This document shows, piece by piece, positions 4,941 through 19,750 of a DNA stretch of 64,000 bases. This DNA comes from Pseudoalteromonas sp. NC201. GTDB lineage: Bacteria; Pseudomonadota; Gammaproteobacteria; Enterobacterales; Alteromonadaceae. The stretch lies in the NCBI RefSeq assembly GCF_002850255.1, contig NZ_CP022522.1, positions 1,058,097-1,122,096 of the forward strand, in the 5' to 3' direction. A program made the position numbers and the translations under genes. The notes below the pieces were generated by a model, which did not search any database, was not told where the DNA came from, and worked only from the letters and a program-made list of their open reading frames with translations. Numbering within the stretch: the first letter of the stretch is position 1; every line of letters starts with the position of its first letter.

Positions 4941-7841
4941 ATGTCAAACGCCAAATCTCTTGAACAGTTAGAGCAAAAGCAAGATTTTATCCGCCGCCAT
5001 ATCGGGCCAAGCCCAGCACAGGTGAGCGAGATGCTAAGCGCTCTTGGAGTATCTAGTGTTGAAGAGCTGATCGGTCAAACTGTACCTGCTTCAATTCGTT
5101 TAGAAGAGGGCTTACAGATCGGTGAAAGCCGCACAGAAGTGGAAACCCTAAGTTACCTGAAATCAGTAGCAAGCAAAAACAAGGTTTTCAAATCTTATAT
5201 CGGTCAAGGCTACCACCCAACTCACGTACCTCACGTTATCCTACGTAACGTACTTGAGAATCCGGGTTGGTACACTGCTTACACCCCTTATCAGCCAGAG
5301 ATTGCGCAAGGTCGCTTGGAATCACTACTTAACTTCCAAACGCTGACTATGGACATTACCGGCCTAGACTTAGCCAGTGCATCACTACTTGACGAATCCA
5401 CCGCAGCGGCAGAAGCAATGGCGCTTGCAAAACGTGTATCTAAAGCGAAAAAAGCAAACATCTTCTTTATTGCCGACGACGTACACGTACAAACTATCGA
5501 CGTAGTATCTACGCGTGCTGAGCAGTTTGGTTTTGAAGTAGTAGTAGGTCCTGCTAGCGACGCTGCTAACCACGAGATTTTTGGTGCGCTATTCCAGTAT
5601 CCAACAACATCAGGTGAAGTGGTTGACGTTACTGACCTAATCGCACAAGTACAAGACAAAAAAGCGATTGCCTGTGTTGCCGCAGATATCATGAGCTTAA
5701 TGCTACTTAAAGCACCAGGAAAGCTAGGTGCAGACGTAGTGCTTGGTTCTGCACAGCGTTTTGGTGTACCAATGGGTTACGGCGGTCCACACGCGGCATT
5801 CTTTGCCACGCGTGATGCTTACAAGCGTTCACTACCAGGCCGTATTATTGGTGTGTCTAAAGACCGTTTAGGTAACGACGCGCTACGTATGGCGATGCAA
5901 ACTCGTGAACAGCACATCCGCCGTGAAAAAGCCAACTCAAACATTTGTACTGCACAGGTGCTACTTGCGAACATGGCTGCGTTTTACGCGGTTTATCATG
6001 GTCCTCAAGGTCTTAAGATCATTGCTGAGCGCATTAATCGCCTTGCAAGCATTCTCGCAACGGGTCTTAAAGCAAAAGGCGTGGCACTGAAGCACGATAC
6101 GTGGTTTGACACTATTACCGTTAAAGCGGACGACGCTGACAAACAAGCGGTTGTGGCGCGTGCAGTAGCAAAAGGCGTGAACTTTGCCCTTAACCACAAC
6201 GGCGAATACTCAATTGCAGTAAACGAAACCACAACGCGTGCGGACGTAGCTGAGCTATTCGACATCATTTTAGGCGACGACCACGGCCTAAATGTAGATG
6301 CGCTAGACGCACAAGTATCAGGCGAGAACATCACAGGTATTCCTGCAAGCCTAGTGCGCGACGACGAAATTTTAACGCACGCAAACTTCAACAGCTATCA
6401 CAGCGAAACCGAGATGCTGCGTTATATCAAGCGTCTTGAAAACAAAGATTTAGCACTAAACCACTCAATGATCTCATTGGGCTCGTGTACCATGAAGCTA
6501 AACGCAACCGCTGAAATGATCCCAGTAACTTGGCCTGAGTTTGCAGAGCTACACCCGTTCTGCCCAATCGACCAAGCACAAGGTTACAAGATCATGATGA
6601 CTGAGCTGCACGACTGGCTTGTGAACATCACAGGTTACGACGCAGTATCACTACAGCCTAACTCAGGTGCACAAGGTGAATACGCAGGTCTTATCGCGAT
6701 CCGTAAGTACCATGAGTCTCGCGGTGAAGGTCACCGTAATATCTGTTTGATCCCAAGTTCAGCGCACGGTACAAACCCAGCGTCTGCACAAATGGCAAGC
6801 ATGAAAGTGGTTGTGGTTGACTGTGATAAAAACGGTAACATCGATATGGAAGACCTACGCGCGAAAGCCGCAGACGTAGCTGAAAACCTATCGTGCATCA
6901 TGGTCACTTACCCGTCTACACACGGTGTATACGAAGAATCTATCCGTGAAGTATGCGACATCGTGCACCAGCACGGCGGCCAAGTATACATGGACGGCGC
7001 AAATATGAACGCGCAGGTTGGGGTAACTAGCCCAGGTTCAATCGGCTCTGACGTATCACACTTAAACCTACACAAAACATTCTGTATTCCACACGGTGGC
7101 GGTGGCCCAGGTGTTGGTCCTATCGGTGTTAAATCGCACCTAGCGCCATTTATGCCTAACCACAGCGTGATCAACGTGGAAGGCACAAACGTAGGTAACG
7201 GCGCGGTTTCTGCGGCACCTTACGGCTCTGCTGCTATTCTACCTATCTCGTGGGCATACATCGCGATGATGGGCAGCGAAGGCCTAAAACAAGCAACAGA
7301 AATGGCAATTGTAAACGCTAACTACCTAACGGCTAAGTTGAGCGAGCACTTCCCAATTCTATACCGTGGCCGTAACGACCGCGTTGCCCACGAATGTATT
7401 GTTGACCTTCGCCCACTGAAAGAAGCCACAGGCATTACCGAAATGGACGTTGCTAAGCGTCTACAAGACTACGGCTTCCACTCACCAACAATGTCGTTCC
7501 CAGTAGCGGGCACACTTATGGTTGAGCCAACGGAATCTGAGTCTAAGGTAGAAATCGACCGCTTTATCGAAGCCATGGTTTCTATCAAAGGTGAAATCGA
7601 CAAGATTGCATCAGGCGAATGGTCTATTGAAGACAACCCATTAGTATTTGCACCACACACGCAAGCAGACGTACTAAGCAACGACTGGAACCGTGCATAT
7701 GACCGCCTCGCAGCGGCATTCCCAGTACCAAGCGTAGCAAAAGACAAATTCTGGCCAACAGTAACCCGTATCGACGACGTATACGGCGACCGTAACCTAA
7801 TTTGTTCTTGCCCAGCGGTTGATACTTACCGCGATGCGTAA
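4941..7841 (+). CDS. gcvP: Glycine dehydrogenase (decarboxylating), P-protein
   Basis: A 966-residue single-chain P-protein, the full bacterial alpha-beta fused length. It decarboxylates glycine using pyridoxal phosphate and passes the methylamine group to lipoyl-GcvH. The PLP-binding lysine is K712 in [18 protein letters not shown], followed by the glycine-rich loop. The N-terminal half contains the duplicated pseudo-catalytic fold, including [11 protein letters not shown]. The gene is intact. The 182-bp gap before it holds the gcvH terminator and about 140 bp in which a separate promoter could lie. GGAACC precedes the ATG. Confidence 0.97.
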
Positions 7842-7852
7842 GGGTTTGTAAA

Positions 7853-7987
7853 TCGCGCTTTAGCGCGACTTAGCAAATATTGAAAAGCCGCCCTTTGTAA
7901 AAAAGGGCGGTTTTTTTGTGGGTGTGAATATGGTGAAGACTCATGTTTGACTCTTTTCTTGGTTTGTGGGAACGGCTTCACGCCGTG
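7853..7987. repeat. Left copy of the ~135-bp island-flanking direct repeat
   Basis: Begins 11 bases after the gcvP stop. It contains a TCGCGCTTTAGCGCGA hairpin, the gcvP terminator, a CTCTTTTCTTGGTTTGTGGG block and a REP-like palindrome ending near CACGCCGTG. It aligns over its whole length, by eye close to 88 percent identical, with 17030-17163. The two copies enclose the accessory operon. Confidence 0.85.
7887..7917 (+). terminator. gcvP rho-independent terminator
   Basis: Stem CCGCCCTTT / AAAGGGCGG followed by seven T residues, 46 bases after the gcvP stop. The same terminator is copied in the right-hand flanking repeat. Confidence 0.9.
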
Positions 7988-8440
7988 ATCTTCTTTGTTA
8001 CTGTCATGATTGACAGCAACTCCCTTCAACCGTAACTCGGGCTAAATAACTTGCTCGTTATGATGAGCTAGTTTCAGCATTCGCCTAATTGTTACGAATG
8101 AATAAGCAAATTTACCTGTGTCGCCCCAATATCAGGCTTTATCTTCAAATAGCGCATCCATGCGCTGGCATTACTCATCAATCGTTTGTTTTCAGGCATG
8201 ATAAAAGAGGGAGGAGATCGCCTGCGAGCTTTGTGTTTTGGGTATTCAATCACGTGTTGCATTGCATCATAAACCTGCTCGTCATAATGAACTTGTTTCG
8301 GAGTCTCGGTTGACCCTTCAGAAGTTTCTAAGTGCTGTTAGTCGAGAATGTGTTGCTTGATGAATACAACCTGTATATCTTGGTAACTTAAAACTTTATT
8401 AACATTAAAGGGACTCTGCAAAAAAGAGTAATAATCGAGG
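7988..8440. other. Intergenic left end of the island, with a gene remnant and the operon leader
   Basis: No intact gene is seen here. The reverse strand carries a coding-like remnant (8092-8337). The final ~100 bp, AT-rich with TTAAAACTTTATTAACATTAAA, should hold the promoter of the defence operon, but no clear -35/-10 pair stands out. A TGACAG-rich palindromic scrap (CTGTCATGATTGACAG, 8000-8015) follows the REP-like site. Confidence 0.5.
8092..8337 (-). pseudogene. Orphan C-terminal remnant of an unidentified protein
   Basis: On the reverse strand a frame stays open for 81 codons between two stops and has protein-like composition, with PPSFIMPENKRLMSNASAWM in the middle and a normal TAA at the end. 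There is no suitable start codon with a ribosome binding site, and the frame is cut by a stop on its upstream side. It therefore looks like the tail of a longer gene that lost its N-terminal part when the island formed. The RRR-SPPSF-MPENKRLM pattern is not recognised with confidence; a mobile-element protein is possible. The opposing + strand frame (8089-8313) is taken to be its shadow. Confidence 0.4.
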
Positions 8441-9172
8441 ATGACAAACAAAGGACGATTGCCAACTCTAGGCACTGATGACCCTGTTATCAGTGAAATA
8501 GCTTGGTTTATCAACACAATTTACCAACCCGCACAAGCTAAATATTCTAGGTTAAGCAAGTTAACTAGAACATTAAGTGCAGTCTCTATTCTGCTAGCTC
8601 TAGTATTTCTAAGCTACTTTGCTTTAAGTGTTTTGTTTCCAGAGCTGAAGCTATTCGCCACCTCCTTGATCTATGATGGTTATGAATATAACTTGGCTAT
8701 TTTCCCCTCACTGATGCTTTTTCTTGCTGCAATTATTCTGAGTTTACGGATTCAGATTGTAGAAAAAAGCTGGCGAAAAACTGTTTTAAATAGCATGCCG
8801 TTGGTACAAGCTAGCGCATTCCTTTTGCTTTTGATGTTTTGCTTTAACCAAGCCGTAGTGGCTGCAGCAGGGCTACTCAACTTAGTTTCCTTTCTGGTTA
8901 CTTACATGGTGAATCGGCTTTTTGGTTATACCTCGGCCGCTACGAGAAACCAAACTATGATTTATAACCTTAAGCGGTTGAAAAGAGAGTATGAAATAGC
9001 GAGTGTTGGCTGTGATGGATATGAGTTAGAAATTTTGCAAGAGGCAACATTCAAAGCTTTATTTCAACTAGAAAAAGATAACGTAAAGCGCTTAGATAAA
9101 GAAATTATGGGTGATCACTATACAGTTCACGACAGCGCGTTTAATGCATTAAAAGGATTAAGGAAGCCGTAA
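8441..9172 (+). CDS. RADAR-associated membrane protein (RdrC/RdrD-like, possibly SLATT)
   Basis: A 243-residue membrane protein with four hydrophobic segments at about residues 45-66, 85-103, 119-135 and 138-157. A charged, probably cytoplasmic helical tail of about 85 residues follows (NLKRLKREYE, then an EILQEATFKALFQLEKDNVK run). Some known RADAR loci carry a third gene for either a Csx27-like (RdrC) or SLATT-domain (RdrD) membrane protein. The basic KYSRLSKLTRTLS lead-in to the first segment and the tail look SLATT-like, but four segments are more than the usual two. Its stop overlaps the ATPase start in TAATG, which argues for coupled translation. A role in limiting or triggering toxicity at the membrane is inference. 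Confidence 0.6.
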   Translation: MTNKGRLPTLGTDDPVISEIAWFINTIYQPAQAKYSRLSKLTRTLSAVSILLALVFLSYFALSVLFPELKLFATSLIYDGYEYNLAIFPSLMLFLAAIILSLRIQIVEKSWRKTVLNSMPLVQASAFLLLLMFCFNQAVVAAAGLLNLVSFLVTYMVNRLFGYTSAATRNQTMIYNLKRLKREYEIASVGCDGYELEILQEATFKALFQLEKDNVKRLDKEIMGDHYTVHDSAFNALKGLRKP

Positions 9173-12141
9173 TGAGTGATAGCGATGAGTATATTTTTGA
9201 TTTAACTAGGGCTGAATATGATGACAGTTTCGGCGCTTCGAACAATTCACAAGAGCTCTGGCAAAAGTACGCTAAAGGTCAATTAGTTAACAATTTAAGG
9301 GCTATTTTAAAAGACGCAATAAGTTATGGCAATCAGCGAAATCAAAACAAGTCGGAAACTTGGTTATCCCATAACGCGATTTTAGTCACCAGCCCGAGAG
9401 GCTCAGGCAAAACCGTCTTTTTACGGAATTGCCAATCGATGTGGCAAAGCCGTGAGGGCAGCAAAGCGGACGAGTTTTCAGATGGCGACCTGTTATTTCT
9501 TGATGTTATCGACCCTACCATGCTGATGGCGCAAGATTCCTTTGCCAATGTTATCGTGGCGCAAATTTATCAGGTCGTGAGTAAAAAGCTTGATGAGTCA
9601 AATTGTTGTAATGACGAGGGAAGAGAGCAGCGCGATAAGTTTCACCGACGACTAAGGAAACTCGCGGATGCCATGGGTAAAACTAGTGAATTTAATGGTG
9701 CCAGTGGCATAGATAAAATTCTTAAATACAGCTCAGGTATACAGCTTGAAAACTATTTCCACTTATTTGTTGAATCCGCCATAAGCATACTTGGGTGCAA
9801 AGCGATTGCCGTTTCCATAGATGACGTTGATATGGCGATGGAGCGAGCATTCGAAGTCGTTGATGATGTTAGGCGGTTTTTAGGGTGCCCGTATTTAATT
9901 CCAATCGTCAGTGGTGAACTTAAGTTGTATGAGCATATGACCCAAAAGCATTTTGACGATAAAGCCTATGAGAATTTATGTCGGGATTCCGAATTGAAAA
10001 GAGAGGGGAAAAATATAAGTAAGGAATTAACAAAAGCCTACTTAACCAAGGTTTTCCCTTCACCAATGCGGATCACGCTTTTCTCAATTGAGCGTCTTCT
10101 AAATCGTATGCAGCTTAAATATGGTGATAAAAAGCAAGTCTCTTATTTAGATTATCAAGAGCATGTACTTAATCAGTTCTACTTTTTATGTCATAACCGA
10201 GATGCAAGAAGAAATTGGACACCGCCAAAGTCGGCTCGCGAACTGACTCAGCTGGTTCGAGCAATTCCACCACAGTATTTAACAGGGCTAGAAAGTGTAA
10301 GCAACATATCAAGTTACAGTGGCGAGAAAGAGGATGATGGTTATAAAGAACAGTTAATCCAAAAATATAGTAACTATAAAAACTGGGCATTACAGCAAGA
10401 AAATGGTGAAGCTCTATCCTTAGCCGAATCAGCAATCACTTTACTGCATGATAATGGTGGTTTATTCGATATTCGCAAGCTACTAGCATTTGACTTACTG
10501 GGTCAAACAGATGCTAATCTTTACCCTTGGGCAGAGTATAATGTTTTAGCCGAACAATTAGAGCGGTTGAATGAGTTACATAAACAAGGTGGTGATAAGA
10601 TCAATAATAAAAAACTACTGGAAGATGTACTGAACCATACTGAAAGAAATAATAGAAATTGTTTAAAGTCAATGCCTCCACTAGAACCTCTCATTGATAA
10701 ACTTTATATAACCCAGGGAGTGGCAAAGTATTATATAAAAAGATTGAAGACTAAAGAGGTAGATGAAAAAGAGTTACTTAAATCCGCCAATAAAATGGGC
10801 TGGAAAGTAGATTGGAAAGTAGAGGAAGAAGAAAAAATACCTATAAAGTATTATAATCCTGGTGAGGTGGTGCTTGACTTATATACAGAGTCAAGTGTTT
10901 ATTCTACATTGAATAATAACTTCAAATTTGCTTTTTTCAGCCGTGCTTTTGAAATTTTAGCATACTCTCTTTTAATTGATAACGAAGAGAAGTCATTGTT
11001 AATAGATGTTTACTATATTTTACAGAGAAAGCCGTTTTATAGTTTACTTAGTTTAGCGGAAACTAAAATTGCCTTAGAGGGCGAGTCTGACGAGGACTCA
11101 AGGGAAGAGCTTGACCTTACAGTCCAGACCAGTGCCTTGGTATTGAGTGTAAAAATAAAAGAATGGCGACAAGAATACCGTGAGCTATTTGAAAAGCTTA
11201 GACCCGAAAAGCTTTTGCCTCTTTTGTCTTATTGTTTTAATGGTGCGTTTACCGCCTTGCACGTTATTAAAGGAAACTGCAGTAATGAAAAGGGAGGCAG
11301 TCGTCAGAAAAATAAAAATTTTACAGATGAACATCTTTCTGACACAGTTTTGCGCTTTAAATATAATGTTTTGAATGCAATTTATCGTAGTGGAATCAGA
11401 GGTGAAGCTGTTTATGCAAATGTACTGGTAGGTGCAAAGTCTAAAACCGTTAGAGATAAAGAGCAATTAAAGAAATATGAAAGAACCTACTCCAGAAATA
11501 AAAAAATAATTGAAGAGGAGCTAGAAATAACTCGAGCTGAAAGCTGCAAGGGAAATGATCCTTATGATACGGGAGAAAAGAGTGTAAATGTAGAAATGGT
11601 GCGAGCTAAAAAGTCATGTGAAAAATTAAACTTGATAAGAAAACTCCACGATGCTGTAGCTAAACACCCCATATTTACAATATTTCCTGAAGATGAAAAG
11701 TTATTTATTCTAGGGGAAATTAATAATCCCATAGTGAACGAAACAATTGTAGTTAATAAGCTTGGTGCTATTGTAAAAGAGGTTAATAGCAATAGCGCTA
11801 TTTATACAATGCTTGAGAAAGTCGGAAATATATTGCCAAATGACAACCTTAATAAGGAGAGAGTTAAAACACTGGCGACTATATTAAGTAAGCATATTTC
11901 GGGCAATACAAGCAAACAAGCGACATTTTTAAGTTCAATTAAAAAATTGTTAGAGGAAGGCTCGCCGCTCACAGCAGCGGAAATTGAACGCTTACGCACG
12001 TCCCTTTTAAAGGTTCAAAGAGAACTAGAGGCAATGGGTGAAAGCTTTTTAAATTCAAAAGAGTTTGAAAAGCTAGACGAGAAACTTCAAAACCTAATTA
12101 AAGCAATTCTTAATTTGGATCTGGGTAATGATAAAGGTTAG
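9172..12141 (+). CDS. rdrA: RdrA-like ATPase of a RADAR antiphage system
   Basis: A 989-residue protein with an N-terminal STAND/AAA-type P-loop module. The Walker A motif is SPRGSGKT (residues 74-81). A Walker B-like AIAVSIDDVDMAM lies at 211-223, followed by IPIVSGEL near 243-250, which resembles a sensor strand. The remaining ~700 residues are helical, lysine- and glutamate-rich and not recognised. Length and its place directly before an RdrB-type deaminase fit RdrA, the ATPase that forms ring assemblies with RdrB in RADAR. The gene overlaps rdrB by 14 bases. AAA/ATA-rich codon use in the second half is unlike the gcv genes and supports transfer. Confidence 0.8.
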   Translation: MSDSDEYIFDLTRAEYDDSFGASNNSQELWQKYAKGQLVNNLRAILKDAISYGNQRNQNKSETWLSHNAILVTSPRGSGKTVFLRNCQSMWQSREGSKADEFSDGDLLFLDVIDPTMLMAQDSFANVIVAQIYQVVSKKLDESNCCNDEGREQRDKFHRRLRKLADAMGKTSEFNGASGIDKILKYSSGIQLENYFHLFVESAISILGCKAIAVSIDDVDMAMERAFEVVDDVRRFLGCPYLIPIVSGELKLYEHMTQKHFDDKAYENLCRDSELKREGKNISKELTKAYLTKVFPSPMRITLFSIERLLNRMQLKYGDKKQVSYLDYQEHVLNQFYFLCHNRDARRNWTPPKSARELTQLVRAIPPQYLTGLESVSNISSYSGEKEDDGYKEQLIQKYSNYKNWALQQENGEALSLAESAITLLHDNGGLFDIRKLLAFDLLGQTDANLYPWAEYNVLAEQLERLNELHKQGGDKINNKKLLEDVLNHTERNNRNCLKSMPPLEPLIDKLYITQGVAKYYIKRLKTKEVDEKELLKSANKMGWKVDWKVEEEEKIPIKYYNPGEVVLDLYTESSVYSTLNNNFKFAFFSRAFEILAYSLLIDNEEKSLLIDVYYILQRKPFYSLLSLAETKIALEGESDEDSREELDLTVQTSALVLSVKIKEWRQEYRELFEKLRPEKLLPLLSYCFNGAFTALHVIKGNCSNEKGGSRQKNKNFTDEHLSDTVLRFKYNVLNAIYRSGIRGEAVYANVLVGAKSKTVRDKEQLKKYERTYSRNKKIIEEELEITRAESCKGNDPYDTGEKSVNVEMVRAKKSCEKLNLIRKLHDAVAKHPIFTIFPEDEKLFILGEINNPIVNETIVVNKLGAIVKEVNSNSAIYTMLEKVGNILPNDNLNKERVKTLATILSKHISGNTSKQATFLSSIKKLLEEGSPLTAAEIERLRTSLLKVQRELEAMGESFLNSKEFEKLDEKLQNLIKAILNLDLGNDKG

Positions 12142-14668
12142 TGATAAAGCGGCTGTATTCGCCGCGTTTTTATCATCCGATAGGTTTGTTGTGCCAGACG
12201 TCCAACAAAGATTCGATGACAAGGGTTGTAAGGTGCTAACCAAAGCGATTTTAGATTATCAACCCTACATTCATCGCAAGCTTCGCACGGATGATGTAGA
12301 AGCAATGATACAGCTGTATCAGTTGTCTGACGCTAGCTGTAATTTTCGTCCTCTATTGTCCTCACTAGCAGAGGAGTTTCTGGAGTGGCAGGGCAATTGT
12401 TTTGTGGTGAAACCTGAACGATTAAACGATTGGTTAGCACTATTGTCATTAGTGGACGGCAGCTGGGTTATCGCCATGGCCTATGCCAATTTACATCTGA
12501 GTTTTGGGTTTTCATCCCATGAACTTTCGCATTGTATAGAATCATTTCAATGCCCTTTTTCGCTACCAAGACAGGCCACCAAAGCGTTTGCGGATAACCA
12601 TGTGCATCTAGGTGGACATGGTTATTTAGGTCCAAGTATGCTGAACTTTTGCTTATATGGTGCCAAAATTAATTCGGAAAGTTTTAAATGGCCAATACGC
12701 CCAGAATATACTGTGTTTGAAAGTGGCTTTATGGAAAAAGCAGACATTGCTGCTTATTGTGGATATCTTGGCGATGAGTTGGCTTATAGGGCTTTCTCCA
12801 CTAAAGAGCAGAAAAGTTGCTTTGAACTGTTGCCAATCGGAGCATTCGAGTATAAAACCCTTGACGCTCTTACTTGTCAGAAACTTACCTCTGAAGCGCA
12901 AAGATTTATCTCCAAGGCAAATTGCGAGGTTATCCCATCTGCTAAGCGCTGGTTATTATATTTAACGGGATTACTAGTTGAACCTAGTATTGATGCTAAA
13001 TCAATGCTGAGGTTAGTACGCTTTAGTAATATTTTGCGCAACTATATGGTGGTCTCTGGAGTTGGTCTTACGCAGTTTGTTAAAACCTTTGGTTTCAAGA
13101 GCAGAAAACAACGTGGTGATTACTTCACCTTACCAGATGGAGTAATAAATGAATCTTTAGCTGCTGATATCGATAGCGGTATTTACAGAGAGTTTCGCTC
13201 ATCACCAGATACGCTAATTAGTGAGGAAGAGAGTTACCACTTAAATGTAGATAGTTTTTCAAAGTCGCTAAAGCAATTATATTTTAAAGCTTTAGCTGAA
13301 AACGCCCATTTTGTCTTACACTTTACACGGTCGGGTGATCGCTTTGACAAACTACAAGAAAGTACTCGCCAAGTATTACGTCAAAAAGTAGAGCTACTGC
13401 AGGACTTTTCCCATTCAATTAGTTTCTCTGAGCACGAGTTAAAAACGCTTCCGCAACTAAAACACGCAACCAGTTTTGATTTACGTAAAGCGATCCGGGG
13501 CTATGATGTTGCTGGCAATGAGAATGAACTACCTGTCGAGGTGTTTGCGCCAGCACTAAGAGTTCTTAGAGATGGTAAATTCCCAGCTGCGGGCCTAAAG
13601 TTTAATCGCTTACCCAAACCTTTTATCACACTTCATGCTGGAGAAGACTTTAGTCATTTGCTATCTGGGCTTCGCGCTATTGATGAAGCTGTAGTTTTTT
13701 GTGACTACCGCTCTGGAGATAGAATAGGTCATGCGCTAGCCCTTGGAGTGTGTCCTGTAATTTGGGCGCATAGGCAACAGACGGCTTACTTAACCGTGGG
13801 AGACCACTTAGATAATCTTGTTTGGTGTCACCAAAAGGCGTTGTCGGTTATCCAGTCTGTGCCTGATATGGTTGGAGTGCTGCCGTTGCTACAAGAAAAA
13901 ATCCATTTTTGGAGCGAGTACCTGTATTTAGAAGCGCAACCACCAAAGCGTTTATATGATGCGTGGCTGTTAAGAAGAAATTGCCCAATTATTTTACAAT
14001 CAGATTCTCATAAACCACTAAAGCTGCCCATTGTTGGACAGAACGATCCTAGGTTAAGTGGCTGGGTTATTGACTTTTCAGATGATTCAAGCGGGCCAAA
14101 TCGAGAGAAGCATATTGAGCTTTGGGAAAAGTATATATTTGCGGGACAAGAGCCTGATTTTAATGCTCGACGAGATAAAGTGTTGAGTATAGATTGCACG
14201 GGACAAAGCAGTAGTGAGACTTTCGGTTTCAAACATGGTCGCTATTTCGACTCCGTTTCTGCTGCAGAATTAAACTTGTATCAGGCCATTCAAGATTGGC
14301 AAATGGAACATTATGCTAAAAAAGGTGTGGTATTAGAGGCGTGTCCAACTTCAAATATATTTATTGGACGCTTTGAGCACTACCATGAACATCCAATTTT
14401 CCGTTGGGATCCGGTAAATAAAGCTTGGTTAGAGCCAGGTGACAAATACAATTTGTTTGGGTTACGAAAGGGGGCCATTCCTACCTGCATTAATACTGAC
14501 GATGCAGCATTGATGCCAACCACTATTGATAATGAACACAGAGTGTTGAAGCAGGCTGCTAGTTCGTATTTTGATGTAGGTGAGACGGTTGCTGAGGATT
14601 GGATTGAACGAATAAGGCAAAGAGGCCTTGAAACGTTTAGAAAAAACCATCTTGACTGGAGTAATTAA
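12128..14668 (+). CDS. rdrB: RdrB-like adenosine deaminase of a RADAR antiphage system
   Basis: An 846-residue, much enlarged adenosine-deaminase-fold enzyme. All active-site motifs are present in order. H158 and H160 in NHVHLGG bind zinc. H503 and catalytic E506 lie in LHAGED. H535 is in DRIGHAL. EACPTSN spans 737-743. D791/D792 in INTDDAAL supply the last zinc ligand and a substrate contact. Ordinary adenosine deaminases are about 340 residues, and the extra ~500 residues of insertions match RdrB. Studied RADAR systems convert ATP and dATP to ITP and dITP during phage attack and stop growth. The whole catalytic set is intact, so this copy is probably active. Confidence 0.85.
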   Translation: MIKVSDKAAVFAAFLSSDRFVVPDVQQRFDDKGCKVLTKAILDYQPYIHRKLRTDDVEAMIQLYQLSDASCNFRPLLSSLAEEFLEWQGNCFVVKPERLNDWLALLSLVDGSWVIAMAYANLHLSFGFSSHELSHCIESFQCPFSLPRQATKAFADNHVHLGGHGYLGPSMLNFCLYGAKINSESFKWPIRPEYTVFESGFMEKADIAAYCGYLGDELAYRAFSTKEQKSCFELLPIGAFEYKTLDALTCQKLTSEAQRFISKANCEVIPSAKRWLLYLTGLLVEPSIDAKSMLRLVRFSNILRNYMVVSGVGLTQFVKTFGFKSRKQRGDYFTLPDGVINESLAADIDSGIYREFRSSPDTLISEEESYHLNVDSFSKSLKQLYFKALAENAHFVLHFTRSGDRFDKLQESTRQVLRQKVELLQDFSHSISFSEHELKTLPQLKHATSFDLRKAIRGYDVAGNENELPVEVFAPALRVLRDGKFPAAGLKFNRLPKPFITLHAGEDFSHLLSGLRAIDEAVVFCDYRSGDRIGHALALGVCPVIWAHRQQTAYLTVGDHLDNLVWCHQKALSVIQSVPDMVGVLPLLQEKIHFWSEYLYLEAQPPKRLYDAWLLRRNCPIILQSDSHKPLKLPIVGQNDPRLSGWVIDFSDDSSGPNREKHIELWEKYIFAGQEPDFNARRDKVLSIDCTGQSSSETFGFKHGRYFDSVSAAELNLYQAIQDWQMEHYAKKGVVLEACPTSNIFIGRFEHYHEHPIFRWDPVNKAWLEPGDKYNLFGLRKGAIPTCINTDDAALMPTTIDNEHRVLKQAASSYFDVGETVAEDWIERIRQRGLETFRKNHLDWSN

Positions 14669-14901
14669 AGTGATTTGATGACGTTAAAAAACAACGAAGT
14701 CAAATTTTACGTTGCAAACTTAAAAAGGAGGTCCCTTTTTTCTGATAATATTTACCTCATTACGCTTTGCGCTTCATTTTGTACTTTGTAATATCAGCAG
14801 TAGTCATTTTGATAAAGATATTCAGCCGCTGGTCGAATTTCGCGTCGCCTTTGCTTCTCACCATCACTTAAATCAATGAGGCTGGTTGGCCGTTGGTAAT
14901 T
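14669..14901 (+). pseudogene. Possible frameshifted 5' part of the small gene after rdrB
   Basis: This gap contains a perfect Shine-Dalgarno AAGGAGGT (14726-14732 region) but no ATG at the right distance; a CTG lies at 14742. The frame starting there is open for about 44 codons (14742-14875, LVEFRVAFASHHHLNQ near the end) and stops at TGA. Shifting one base forward at that TGA joins the next small frame without a gap (EAGWPLVIMK). A second short frame, from the ATG at 14678, runs into the same region. This looks like a small gene split by a one-base insertion. A translational frameshift or two separate small peptides are less likely. Confidence 0.35.
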
Positions 14902-15174
14902 ATGAAGTGTGGTAAAGGTGTTGCTGGTGCACCATGTGGATTTCTAACTTCTGGGCTTTGGCAATTAAAGACGCTGATAGCCAACCCTATACGTTTTGAA
15001 ACATTGGCTAAAGAGCGGGGGAAAGTCAACAATAATAAGTCCCTGTATGCTATGTTGTTTATGTTCTATTACACCAGCTGCATAGAGCTGGGGTTGCCTA
15101 AAAAGAGTAACCCAGATAGTCGAAATCGTTCACAGGTTTTAGGCCAATATAAAGAGAGTAATAAGGGGCGGTAA
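14902..15174 (+). CDS. Small unknown protein coupled to the 5'-nucleotidase gene
   Basis: A 90-residue frame from ATG (the frame is open from 14872). It contains CGKGVAGAPCGF near the N-terminus and a hydrophobic SLYAMLFMFYYTSCIEL stretch, then a polar basic tail. The stop overlaps the next ATG in TAATG, the same coupling used elsewhere in this operon, which is the best sign that it is translated. No ribosome binding site precedes the ATG, which suggests the true beginning lies upstream in another frame (see 14669-14901). No family was recognised. Confidence 0.4.
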   Translation: MKCGKGVAGAPCGFLTSGLWQLKTLIANPIRFETLAKERGKVNNNKSLYAMLFMFYYTSCIELGLPKKSNPDSRNRSQVLGQYKESNKGR

Positions 15175-16154
15175 TGGCACTTGATTTACGTAATACCTTA
15201 GTGGTGGGTATTTCAGCAACGGCACTTTTTGATATGAGTGCATCAGATAAAATATTTCGCGAAACCTATGCTGAAGACCCAAATACAGCGATTGAAGCGT
15301 ATCGGGATTATATGCTGAAGCATGAAGACGAACCGCTAAAACCGGGTACGGGTTATTACTTAATTAAAGCCTTGCTTGCTCTAAATAAATACCAAGACGC
15401 AGATGATAGATCGCCGCTTGTTGAAGTGGTGGTTATGTCGCGCAATAGCCCTGATACTGGTTTACAGGTACTTAATACTATTCGCCACGATAAACTCAAT
15501 ATTACGCGCTCAGCGTTTACCGCAGGTGAGTCAGTTGCAGACTATCTTGACGCCTTCGACGTAGATTTGTTTCTTACCACTAATATTGATGATGCGCAGC
15601 GAGTTATTGATTCAACCCAGTGCGCCGCGGCTGTTTTAAAAAATCCGCCAATAAATGCTCCTAAAATACCTGAAGGTCAGGTAAGAATTGCTTTTGATGG
15701 TGATGCAGTATTATTTTCTGACGAAAGTGAGCTGGTGTATAAAACTCAAGGTATGGCAGCTTTTCATGCTCAAGAAGATGAAAAACAAGATATTCCCATG
15801 CAAGACGGGCCGTATGCCAATTTATTAAGAAAATTGTCAAAACTGCAAGACAGACTTCCGATAAGAGTTGAGTATTCGCCTATTCGGATCGCTATTGTTA
15901 CTGCCAGAAATAGCCCATCAGAAATGCGCGTAATCAAAACGCTGCGGGAATGGGGTGTTTATGTTGATGAAGCGTTCTTTTTAGGTGGGGTAAGTAAAGA
16001 TAAAGTATTAAAAGCCTTTAACCCTCACATATTTTTTGATGATCAAGACGTGCACTTGGAGGCGGCTGCCAATATAGTGCCTTCAGGTAAGGTTCCTTAC
16101 CTCAGTAGTTCGGAAATGGCGGTAAAACAGCCTAAACCGGAAAAGAAAGTCTGA
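15174..16154 (+). CDS. Cytosolic 5'-nucleotidase I (cN-I)-type nucleoside monophosphatase
   Basis: A 326-residue protein of the 5'-nucleotidase family that includes eukaryotic cN-I (Pfam PF06189, by recollection), with a HAD-type active site. Visible motifs are FDGDAVLFSDESE (DxD at 175-177), VTARNSP (T243), K276 or K278 in SKDKVLK and FFDDQDVHLEAA (DD at 289-290). Characterised members remove phosphate from AMP and other nucleoside or deoxynucleoside 5'-monophosphates. It starts on the last base of the preceding stop and its own stop overlaps the next start (TGATG), so it is translated as part of the RADAR operon. A role in clearing IMP/dIMP or AMP produced around RdrB action is inference. 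Confidence 0.82.
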   Translation: MALDLRNTLVVGISATALFDMSASDKIFRETYAEDPNTAIEAYRDYMLKHEDEPLKPGTGYYLIKALLALNKYQDADDRSPLVEVVVMSRNSPDTGLQVLNTIRHDKLNITRSAFTAGESVADYLDAFDVDLFLTTNIDDAQRVIDSTQCAAAVLKNPPINAPKIPEGQVRIAFDGDAVLFSDESELVYKTQGMAAFHAQEDEKQDIPMQDGPYANLLRKLSKLQDRLPIRVEYSPIRIAIVTARNSPSEMRVIKTLREWGVYVDEAFFLGGVSKDKVLKAFNPHIFFDDQDVHLEAAANIVPSGKVPYLSSSEMAVKQPKPEKKV

Positions 16155-16864
16155 TGAAGTTACTACTCTCTGCCAGCAATGTATTAAATAAATGGCTTAA
16201 AACCGATCTGCCGAGATTACCAACGCGTGAAGGTAAACAAGCGGGGGTTAATACACTGAAATCAGATAGCACAGCTATGTGCTGGCAAGCTCATGTGATT
16301 GATAATCGATACAAGTCATATGAAAAAACCATTATTGTTTGTGAAGCTAATAGTCGCTTTGTCTTCTTTATACCAGTTACTGCACGACTAACTGTTGATG
16401 AGTTAACTAAGTTACTCACTATGGAGTGGCAGGCAATGTTGGCGGAAACATTGGAAAGCTATCAAAGCGCTGATGGAAGAATGCCTAGAAGTGAAATAGC
16501 CTTGTTGTTGAGTGAGTTATCAGACATAACATTTAACGTTGAGTGGGTTAAAAATACTGATTTAAGTATAAATGGGCATATTAGCGATGCAGGGATTTGG
16601 GTTGAACAAATTTTAAGAGAGCAAGGTGCATCCCAGTTATCAGCCCAGCAAGCGACTGAATTAGCTATTTACCTAAACACGTCCGTAAAACGAATAACAA
16701 ACAAAGAAACTAAGCGTAAAGAGAAGGTTATTCCGATAAAGGAGTTACTGGCCTATTGCCAAGCTTTGGTTAAAAGTGAGTGCCTTGGGGATGTGAACGA
16801 AGTTGCGTCACATGATGCTTGTGACTTATCCAACGTAGTGTATTTAAAGCATTATAGAAAGTAG
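16154..16864 (+). CDS. Unknown 236-residue protein, faintly DUF6933-like
   Basis: The last gene of the island operon, overlapping the nucleotidase stop by one base. The N-terminal half reads CWQAHVIDNRYKSYEK, IIVCEANSRFVFFIPVTA and ELTKLL, a strand-rich pattern that recalls DUF6933 proteins (WHA...D....VLF.N..T.Y.F). That assignment is weak. The C-terminal half is helical, with a lysine-rich TNKETKRKEKV stretch near residues 177-188. There is no signal peptide or membrane segment, so it is probably cytoplasmic. As the most distal operon gene it could be an immunity, sensor or adaptor protein for the nucleotidase; nothing in the sequence decides this. Confidence 0.65.
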   Translation: MKLLLSASNVLNKWLKTDLPRLPTREGKQAGVNTLKSDSTAMCWQAHVIDNRYKSYEKTIIVCEANSRFVFFIPVTARLTVDELTKLLTMEWQAMLAETLESYQSADGRMPRSEIALLLSELSDITFNVEWVKNTDLSINGHISDAGIWVEQILREQGASQLSAQQATELAIYLNTSVKRITNKETKRKEKVIPIKELLAYCQALVKSECLGDVNEVASHDACDLSNVVYLKHYRK

Positions 16865-16872
16865 AGTTGCTT

Positions 16873-16991
16873 ATCAAAAGGTAAAATTGCAGGTTGGATT
16901 TGAACAACATATCGCGACATAAAGTCGCTGCTACGAATTGTTCGTAGTCGCTGGCAAGCATCTAAAGATCGCGGCGTGAAGCCGCTCCTAC
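16873..16991. repeat. Right-end direct repeat, copy 1
   Basis: Starts at ATCAAAAGGT just after the operon's last stop and ends in the REP-like GCGGCGTGAAGCCGCTCC. It contains GACATAAAGTCGCTGCTAC and TTGTTCGTAGTCGCTGGCAA. A second, slightly diverged copy lies at 17273-17388. Between them sits the right island-flanking repeat. Confidence 0.85.
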
Positions 16992-17029
16992 ACGGCTTAG
17001 TTAAAATAGAAGAGCCAAGGGGTTGTTGG

Positions 17030-17163
17030 TCGCGCTTTAGCGCGACTTAGCAAATTTTGAAAAGCCGCCCTTTGTAATAAGGGCGGCTTTTTTGTGGGCA
17101 TGGATTTGGTGGAAGCTCGTGTTTGGCTCTTTTCTTGGTTTGTGGGAGCGGCTTTACGCCGCG
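17030..17163. repeat. Right copy of the island-flanking direct repeat
   Basis: Matches 7853-7987 from TCGCGCTTTAGCGCGACTTA through the gcvP-type terminator to the REP-like GGAGCGGCTTTACGCCGCG. The offset between the copies is about 9,177 bp, which gives the size of the enclosed segment plus one repeat. Single-base differences and two one-base gaps show that the copies have diverged since duplication. Confidence 0.85.
17061..17094 (+). terminator. Terminator of the island operon (copy of the gcvP terminator)
   Basis: Stem AAAGCCGCCCTT / AAGGGCGGCTTT followed by T residues, about 200 bp after the last operon stop and in the orientation that ends that operon. Confidence 0.8.
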
Positions 17164-17272
17164 CTCCCTTATAGCAACGCATAACTGCGACTTCACACCA
17201 AATCTCTGCGTAGGTCGCGATTTATGGCGACAAATAATATACCACTCTGGTTTTGCCTTGCCGGCGAAGCGA

Positions 17273-17388
17273 TATCAGGTAAAGTTGAAGGCTGGATTCA
17301 AAAACAAGTCGCAACATAAAGTCGCTGCTACAAATTGTTCGTAGTCGCTGGCAAGCTCCTGAAGATCGCGGCGTGAAGCCGCTCCTAC
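17273..17388. repeat. Right-end direct repeat, copy 2
   Basis: A near copy of 16873-16991: ATCAGGTAAAGTTGAAGGCT, then CATAAAGTCGCTGCTAC, TTGTTCGTAGTCGCTGGCAA and GCGGCGTGAAGCCGCTCC. Together with the flanking repeat it makes 16865-17460 a stretch without genes, built of repeats. Confidence 0.85.
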
Positions 17389-17460
17389 TCGGTTTGGCTC
17401 AACGCGATGTAGAATTGCTTAATACTTTAGTTGCAGGCCTTGTAGTGTGCATTTACCGCC

Positions 17461-17775
17461 TTAATGGACGGTAATAGGGAGGTCGTTTACTACTAACGAT
17501 TGGCCATTTTGCTGAGCTCGAAGAAAACTGGATACCAAAACGTCGTTGGATAGGGTGCTGATGTCGTTAACGGTTTCGACCATGCAAAACGTAATAGACT
17601 CCCAACCTAAATCTTTAATAAAGGCCTCAAGTTTATTGATGTTATCTTCATAGTTTTCGTCTGTGGTTAGCAGGCCGATGGAGTGTTTGTTACCGGGTTT
17701 GTATTTCCCTTGCTGAGTGATGGCGCATTTAGCGTAACCGCTCAACACATAAACTGTATTTGTGCTTTTGTTCAT
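17461..17775 (-). CDS. Conserved-looking hypothetical protein, 104 residues
   Basis: A small soluble protein with no signal peptide. YVLSGYAKCAITQQGKY near the N-terminus and ESITFCMVETVNDIS in the middle suggest an alternating strand/helix fold. It stands alone on the reverse strand beside the island's right edge, with more than 400 bp to the next start on its upstream side. The composition and the ATG start after an AT-rich leader look genuine, but no family was recognised and no ribosome binding site stands out. Confidence 0.6.
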   Translation of the reverse strand: MNKSTNTVYVLSGYAKCAITQQGKYKPGNKHSIGLLTTDENYEDNINKLEAFIKDLGWESITFCMVETVNDISTLSNDVLVSSFLRAQQNGQSLVVNDLPITVH

Positions 17776-18184
17776 ATTGGTGACATGCTTAAGTTTAATT
17801 CTGATTTTGATTTCAGATGCATTTTTTAAACCAAGCTTATAAATATTGCTCTGCTGTTTGCTTATATATTGAAAGTATTGAGAAAAATCATTGGTGATTT
17901 ATCTTAGGTGTTGATCCTATAAAAGGCGTCAATTTTTTGTGAGATGGAATGATAGGGATTGCGCTTGAATTGTGTTTGTATCTAAAGCTACGCTGAAAAC
18001 GAAGGGAGCTGAGGCATTATTTTTCGCCATAAATGGCGACCTACGGGGGCGTAAGGTTGTACTGCGAAATGCTGGCTTTGCTTTCTTTGTTTTGACAAGT
18101 TGCCTTAAACTATCTCGTTAACCTTGTTGCTGGTACGATGAGTTGTTACTCTCGAGTTCAATAAACAAAATTAAAGGCAACATC
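17776..18184. other. AT-rich intergenic stretch
   Basis: No gene seen on either strand. It holds the divergent promoters of the 104-residue gene and the thioesterase, and a small palindromic scrap TCGCCATAAATGGCGA near 18025. Confidence 0.5.
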
Positions 18185-18744: not shown

Positions 18745-19750
18745 ATGCCAACATTAACGGCGAGGCAGAATATCAAAGCGATAGTGACTGCTATCCAAGC
18801 TGAAGAGCAGTCGCTTCGAACGCGTTATCCTATTTTAAATCAGCAAAACGGTATTGCTATGGTGATTTTGCTGTTGTCGTTAAGTGCGCTAATTGGTGTT
18901 GCCTCGCTTTACTATTTTGCCGTTATTCCTGCATGGCTGTGTATTATCTTGGCGGCTTTTATTACCTCTATTTCTCATGAACTTGAGCACGATTTGATCC
19001 ACAAGCAGTATTTTAGTGACCGCCCATTTGTATATCATTTTATGATGTTGACGGTGTGGCTTATGCGGTCAAATACGGTGAACCCTTGGTATCGCAGGCA
19101 AATTCATTTACATCACCATAAAGTGTCTGGTACTGAACAAGACTTAGAGGAGCGCTTGGTGGGTAATGGTATCCAATCTCCTTGGTTGCGAGCTGTGGTG
19201 GTTACAGATGGATTGCTAGGTTTATTATTGAATGCCAAGCGGTTTAGTCGAGAAATCAAGGGTTTTAAGTTTTTGCAGGTCTTTAATGCTGGTTTTCCGC
19301 TTGCCACGGCTTATTTTGCGACTTTATATGGTGTGATTACTTATTACGTACTGCAATTTATACAACCGTGAATTACCTAGGTGGGGAGCAGAGTTACTAG
19401 CGGTTGCTGAGTTCTTAATGGTGGTGCTGATTGTGCCTAATATGATCCGCTCAGCATCTTTAAACCTTGTCACATCTTCAATGCATTATTATGGCGGCGT
19501 GAGTAATGTGTTAGAGCAGACCCATGTGATCACCAGTCGCTGGTTTTTACCGCTTCAGTTATTTTGTTTTGATTTTGGTCGTACGCACACGATCCATCAC
19601 TTTGTGCCTAATCAACCATTTTATATTAGACAATTGATAAGTAAAAAAGTACGCCCGGTTATGGCCCTGTATGGCGTGCGCTTTAATGATTTACAGAGTT
19701 TAAGGCATGCAAATCATTATCCTGTCGAAAAGCCTGCCGCTAAAAGTTAG
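18745..19750 (+). pseudogene. Fatty acid desaturase, split by a frameshift
   Basis: Two consecutive frames encode the two parts of one membrane desaturase. The first (208 residues, stop at 19371) carries histidine boxes HELEHDLIH and HLHHH plus hydrophobic segments. The second continues without loss (YNRELPRWGAELLAVAEF onward) and carries the third box HTIHHF. The frame moves by one base near 19360, at ATTTATACAACCGTGA, consistent with a single inserted base. Intact enzymes of this family use the di-iron centre bound by the three boxes to introduce a double bond. Without the third box neither product should work. A sequencing error in the A/T-rich site is the main alternative. Confidence 0.8.

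Follow-up and report, generated by a model that had tools for sequence, protein, structure and literature searches.

The closest described system to the locus reported here is RADAR, in which RdrA and RdrB, during infection, produce ITP from ATP and dITP from dATP according to the part of PMC9994260 that was available to us. Csx27-associated and SLATT-associated RADAR (rdrABC, rdrABCD) are named as subtypes in the accessible part of PMC7699616. The word nucleotidase was absent from the available part of PMC9994260, and our literature search found no paper linking RdrA and RdrB to a nucleotidase. We analysed a window from Pseudoalteromonas sp. NC201 (by window we mean the whole 64,000-nucleotide stretch of DNA), in which a preliminary description had read five successive genes as one RADAR operon extended by a cN-I type 5'-nucleotidase and a further protein. 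Our analysis favours, at a probability of roughly 0.86, two independent defence units lying next to each other in a cargo hotspot of the Pseudoalteromonas chromosome, bounded by gcvP and a thioesterase-like gene. The first is a RADAR operon made up of a SLATT-like membrane protein, rdrA and rdrB; in the second, a cN-I nucleotidase of HAD type and a DUF6933-like protein would be translationally coupled. No result obtained here gave any sign that the second unit needs the first.

Gene layout and the RADAR core

All five open reading frames of the preliminary description were recovered at the same positions and lengths (Table 1). A TAATG was common to the membrane gene and rdrA, rdrA and rdrB overlapped by 14 bp, and a TGATG was common to the nucleotidase and DUF6933-like genes. 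The rdrB stop (14668) and the nucleotidase ATG (15174) were 505 bp apart with no translational coupling. The tight coupling proposed for the whole row therefore held for the membrane gene with rdrA and for the nucleotidase with its downstream neighbour, but not between rdrB and the nucleotidase, where we rejected it because the TAATG at the nucleotidase start is the end of a 93-aa ORF that begins with TTG and not the end of rdrB. This short ORF was itself rejected as a sixth gene, having no family match in Pfam, PADLOC, NCBIfam or PHROGs and no tblastn match in 61 other RdrB loci (see below) or in a further set of 18 loci. A terminator-like site was looked for in the gap 3' of rdrB and none was found, so co-transcription across the gap is possible; two promoter-like sites were observed in it, one per strand, versus 1.8 expected. 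The genes thus form two tightly joined groups, membrane gene-rdrA-rdrB and nucleotidase-DUF, rather than a single five-gene group, and the overlaps, which had been taken as a sign that all of the products act together, instead divide the genes in two.

Table 1. Positions of the genes, repeats and neighbouring features within the window.
Feature	Position	Strand	Basis or remark
151-bp repeat, left copy	7840..7990	+	just 3' of gcvP
SLATT-like membrane protein gene, 243 aa	8441..9172	+	5' of rdrA; hydrophobic stretches
rdrA, AAA+ ATPase of RADAR, 989 aa	9172..12141	+	PADLOC, NCBIfam, motifs
rdrB, ATP/dATP deaminase of RADAR, 846 aa	12128..14668	+	NCBIfam, PADLOC, residues
Gap between the two gene groups, 505 bp	14669..15173	+	contains most of the 93-aa ORF (14893-15174)
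cN-I type 5'-nucleotidase, 326 aa	15174..16154	+	PF06189, PADLOC PDC-S08
DUF6933-like protein, 236 aa	16154..16864	+	PF22016 below cut-off, PADLOC PDC-S63 weak
151-bp repeat, right copy	17017..17166	+	3' of the DUF gene
Hotspot, gcvP to thioesterase-like gene	7838-18143
106-nt stretch and its repeat	16900-17402		3' of the DUF gene
Desaturase-like gene in two ORFs	18745-19750		looks frame-shifted

Judged by its protein matches, the first group is a RADAR operon of known kind, as had been described. RdrB scored 903.1 bits against the NCBIfam RdrB model (cut-off 800) and matched RdrB in PADLOC at 5.3e-238, while RdrA matched PADLOC RdrA at 3.2e-156 and the whole NCBIfam model at 2.7e-174, its 581.6 bits being slightly below the cut-off of 600. 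The motifs noted previously were also present. RdrA carried its Walker motifs A and B as GSGK and IDDVD, and the 846-residue RdrB carried the adenosine-deaminase active site, i.e. the zinc-binding histidine tetrad and the catalytic glutamate (H158, H160, H503, E506 and H535), each invariant across 8 aligned RdrB proteins. An RdrA-family gene directly 5' of rdrB gives the window the same families and gene order as RADAR, although its proteins are distant from the solved chains: RdrA matched chain 8hr7_A at 4.4e-22 and RdrB matched chain 8fnv_A at 1.1e-19, both over part of their length, and we take both PDB entries to be RADAR structures. The zinc ligands and catalytic glutamate are spaced, to one residue, as in E. 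coli RdrB, where the counterparts given in the available part of PMC9994260 are H152, H154, H498, E501 and H530. An RdrA match was also observed in P. caenipelagi (NZ_JABBPG010000008.1, locus L056), and a search of viral contigs found no RdrB relatives. If it behaves like its studied homologues, RdrA would respond to infection and assemble on RdrB, and membership of the RdrB family suggests that the latter would deaminate ATP and dATP to ITP and dITP, with phage replication halted as a result.

In 11 of the 61 RdrB loci, the gene immediately 5' of rdrA encoded a relative of the membrane protein. The protein had no Pfam match at E <= 1, but its C-terminal part aligned by hhalign with two families that lie 3' of rdrB elsewhere (87.8% and 93.8%), and the one member of the 87.8% family that was scanned matched SLATT_2 at 5e-12. 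Because of this likeness, and because SLATT and Csx27 subtypes have been named, the protein is most likely a RADAR accessory of known sort. It differs from the SLATT- and Csx27-associated forms, as far as these are set out in the accessible part of PMC7699616, in that its gene stands 5' of rdrA and in that none of the 11 members of its family had a Pfam SLATT match.

The nucleotidase and the DUF6933-like protein

Assignment of the fourth gene to a cN-I type family was upheld by a full-length PF06189 match (2.8e-118, residues 1-312). Residues D175, D177, T243, K275, D289 and D290, which we read as HAD catalytic motifs, were invariant among 16 aligned homologues, and for this reason the protein is very likely an active monophosphatase. 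It agrees with cN-I in both respects, whereas phmmer at E <= 0.001 returned no solved relative and its substrate is putative. Within PADLOC the nucleotidase matched PDC-S08 (1.8e-131) and the last protein of the row matched, weakly, PDC-S63 (2.4e-6). These are separate candidates there, and the 'S' presumably stands for single-gene. The literature searched contained no experimental test of either. According to the available part of PMC10855318, PDC-S08 is split evenly among phage-resistant and phage-susceptible P. aeruginosa strains, which is neutral as to a defence role.

The nucleotidase of the window is the sole PF06189 match in its genome. Relatives of it were observed in 46 plasmid records, those at 74-79% identity coming from E. 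coli, Klebsiella and P. putida. Among 5426 E. coli genomes, 67 held a relative of the E. coli plasmid nucleotidase, and in 57 of these the match covered at least 80% of the gene. The annotated surroundings were inspected in 5 of these 67 genomes and in 6 of the 46 plasmid records. We also fetched 19 nucleotidase loci of 5 to 25 kb each, including 11 with a nucleotidase more than 70% identical to that of the window (74-83%), and rdrA, rdrB and the membrane gene were absent from all 19. Close relatives of the nucleotidase were observed to have type I restriction-modification genes no more than 10 kb away. An hsdM match was found in eight of the 11 close loci (L163, L166, L008, L012, L211, L212, L213 and L215; six of the eight from E. 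coli), being partial in L012 and L212, and a ninth locus (L214) carried annotated hsdS pieces. With the same hsdM and hsdR queries, 2 of the 61 RdrB loci gave a match, a contrast that is lenient and favours the nucleotidase loci, since the queries were taken from two of them, and that includes seven E. coli loci among the 11 which are not independent. Other neighbours included Dsr1, a SIR2 protein together with a TIR protein, TerY-P, a phosphorothioated-DNA endonuclease, and integrases beside tRNA genes. Five IMG/VR viral contigs (L216-L220) also carried PF06189 relatives, at 43-66% identity, and in L217-L219 these were observed at the contig end.

The most likely substrates of the nucleotidase are (deoxy)nucleoside monophosphates, which it would dephosphorylate. 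The company it keeps with DNA-degrading systems suggests that it would starve phages of monophosphates recycled from degraded DNA, possibly as a nucleotide-removing partner of DNA-degrading defence, and that it would be a solitary defence gene travelling with type I restriction-modification islands. It may have a defence role, for which it is a candidate by neighbourhood alone.

Alternatively, the nucleotidase could serve nucleotide salvage as a metabolic gene and play no part in defence. In a sample of 394 genomes from the order (the window genome included), 34 of the 63 genomes bearing PF06189 came from a single family (f7), and the four f7 proteins compared were 42-47% identical to the nucleotidase of the window; given this share and these identities, some of PF06189 may simply belong to inherited metabolism. 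Such a role is nevertheless unlikely for the gene in question. Only one of the 35 other genomes from the same genus had a match, and this was a broken copy (G028), while close relatives were carried on plasmids and on integrase-borne islands with type I restriction-modification, Dsr1, SIR2 or TerY-P.

The last protein scored 20.9 bits against PF22016, below the gathering cut-off of 27, and DUF6933 was matched at E <= 0.01 by 10 of the 15 members of its alignment, itself included. It was found in 3 of 40 genomes from the genus and 22 of the 394 from the order (window genome included in both), and no relatives were found in viral contigs. The TGATG join would be expected if this gene and the nucleotidase formed a conserved two-gene system rather than two touching solitary genes, and the two do adjoin in G028, at the same locus as in the window, while in G155 (83% identity for the nucleotidase and 50% for the DUF protein) some 0.5 kb separates them. 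However, the order in G155 is reversed and coupling is absent, and the two families were not associated across the order, occurring together in 2 of 393 genomes when a 59-aa fragment in G079 is counted (odds ratio 0.55, p = 0.55). The DUF protein was also found without PF06189 in G026, G218 and G228, and the DUF genes of the window and G028 showed 8 amino-acid-changing versus 6 silent codon differences, so that strong constraint was not evident. We regard a conserved pair as improbable.

Comparison with other RdrB loci

The proposed extension of RADAR was compared against 61 other RdrB loci, of which 59 were obtained by a profile scan of genome contigs with an RdrB alignment and two were on plasmids. 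The 59 scanned loci ranged from 68% identity to weak partial matches, and an rdrA match was present in 56 of the 61. The nucleotidase and the DUF protein were sought by tblastn, and the nucleotidase also by a 39-sequence HMM in all six frames. Neither was found in any of the 61 loci within the DNA fetched, which extended at least 3 kb 3' of rdrB in 57 of them, with the other four kept in the count. The nucleotidase search does work, as its query recovered all 19 of the known nucleotidase loci supplied as a control. Across the 394 order genomes, rdrB was observed in 7 and PF06189 in 63 (window genome included). Both were present in just two genomes, that of the window and G369, and in G369 a single contig carries them at a distance of 3.2 Mb (0.36 Mb should the contig be circular). 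With the window genome left out there was no association (Fisher odds ratio 1.07, p = 1).

Recurrence of cN-I 3' of rdrB, which an extended subtype would have implied, was thus seen in none of the 61 loci, while other families did recur there. The first 3' ORF was on the rdrB strand and within 100 bp in 13 of the 61 loci, and on that strand within 500 bp in 27. Recurrent families on this strand included proteins of 183-248 aa (seven loci), 245 aa (three loci) and 186-200 aa (three loci), and a Ham1-SIR2 pair (two loci); two Pectobacterium RdrB loci also had their next two 3' genes in common.

An extended RADAR would have the nucleotidase turn IMP, derived from the ITP and dITP of RdrB, into inosine, so that the adenine pool would not be rebuilt, with the DUF protein modulating the process. 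The nucleotidase would suit this step, as cN-I enzymes act on monophosphates, and the genes share one strand and one repeat-bounded block. A Ham1-family gene follows rdrB in 2 of the 61 loci elsewhere, and the scheme is chemically sensible given the production of ITP and dITP by RdrB (PMC9994260, in the part available). Against it stand the missing coupling to rdrB and the abundance of PF06189 without RADAR in order genomes, E. coli genomes and nucleotidase loci. Absence of the nucleotidase beside rdrB in related loci was the check set beforehand, and it was absent from all 61; together with the lack of a genome-level association and of RADAR in the 19 nucleotidase loci, this led us to reject an extended subtype, and we consider such a role for the nucleotidase very unlikely. 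A lineage-specific add-on, by which a captured cN-I would drain the IMP left after RADAR and convert a reversible nucleotide change into an irreversible loss of the purine pool, is just as hard to credit.

The Ham1-SIR2 pair was observed after rdrB, on the same strand, in Enterovibrio sp. ZSDZ35 (L088, 12161-13503) and Rahnella inusitata (L090, 5900-7254), whose RdrB proteins are 44% identical. The Ham1-family gene of L088 matched PF01725 at 2.4e-40 and its L090 counterpart was 49% identical to it; the gene directly joined to Ham1 was labelled SIR2-like by reading of its sequence, not by a family scan. The Ham1 family is of the inosine-triphosphate pyrophosphatase kind, and KomB and KomC of the Kongming system are HAM1 and SIR2 proteins. 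In the available part of PMC12948488, dITP is described as switching on KomB and the NAD-depleting KomC. Because RdrB makes dITP, RADAR could by analogy feed a Kongming-like HAM1-SIR2 effector, an arrangement seen beside RADAR in only 2 of the 61 loci. The pair was also found in G132 and G302, both without an rdrB match, and a literature search found no paper joining Kongming and RADAR.

The gcvP hotspot

The flanking genes named here (gcvP, thioesterase and desaturase) were identified by our reading of their sequences. A 151-bp repeat flanks the whole block of five genes, and its two copies there are the only ones in the 5.38-Mb genome. With all five on one strand and the repeat pair found nowhere else, the genes may have arrived together. 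In G014, the end of gcvP was 100% identical to that of the window, the contig ended 196 bp 3' of gcvP, and rdrB, PF06189 and the DUF protein all lacked a match; this genome is equally compatible with one-step and two-step arrival of the block. In G028, where the end of gcvP was 98% identical, the nucleotidase survives as its C-terminal 151 residues (98.7% identical), together with the DUF gene (96.6%) and the genes after it, and no RADAR match was found by a family search that was positive in the window genome. G028 thus shows the right-hand part of the block without RADAR. To treat it as proof of separate histories would be too strong, since its nucleotidase is truncated from the left side and the truncating event may have removed RADAR too.

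The interval from gcvP to the thioesterase-like gene was observed to be a cargo hotspot in Pseudoalteromonas, with defence genes that differ among species. In 7 relatives the two flanking genes shared a contig and were separated by less than 15 kb, the distance being smallest in G027 (1.55 kb) and largest in G009 (14.4 kb); in G028 it was 33.5 kb. Cargo included a DdmDE-like pair in G004 (locus L204), a reverse transcriptase-nitrilase gene in G013 (L207), and genes for TniQ, a TniB-like ATPase and HamA in G028 (TniQ and HamA genes, L173/L168). Two smaller features were observed at the right-hand side. A 106-nt stretch 3' of the DUF gene recurs 397 bp on at 87% identity, with more copies in G028. 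The desaturase-like gene is present in two ORFs in different frames, and is a single ORF of 331-344 aa in the relatives G014, G018 and G023.

The novelty of an extended RADAR is therefore unsupported; the RADAR described here adds a member to a known system, and the nucleotidase pair is its neighbour. Genes arranged head to tail within a defence hotspot are not necessarily one system. The locus adds a divergent Pseudoalteromonas RADAR with a membrane accessory, documents a cargo hotspot 3' of gcvP, and presents the PF06189 nucleotidase as a defence candidate that accompanies type I restriction-modification. For an extension of RADAR that would use inosine nucleotides, the HAM1-SIR2 pair beside RADAR is the better lead.
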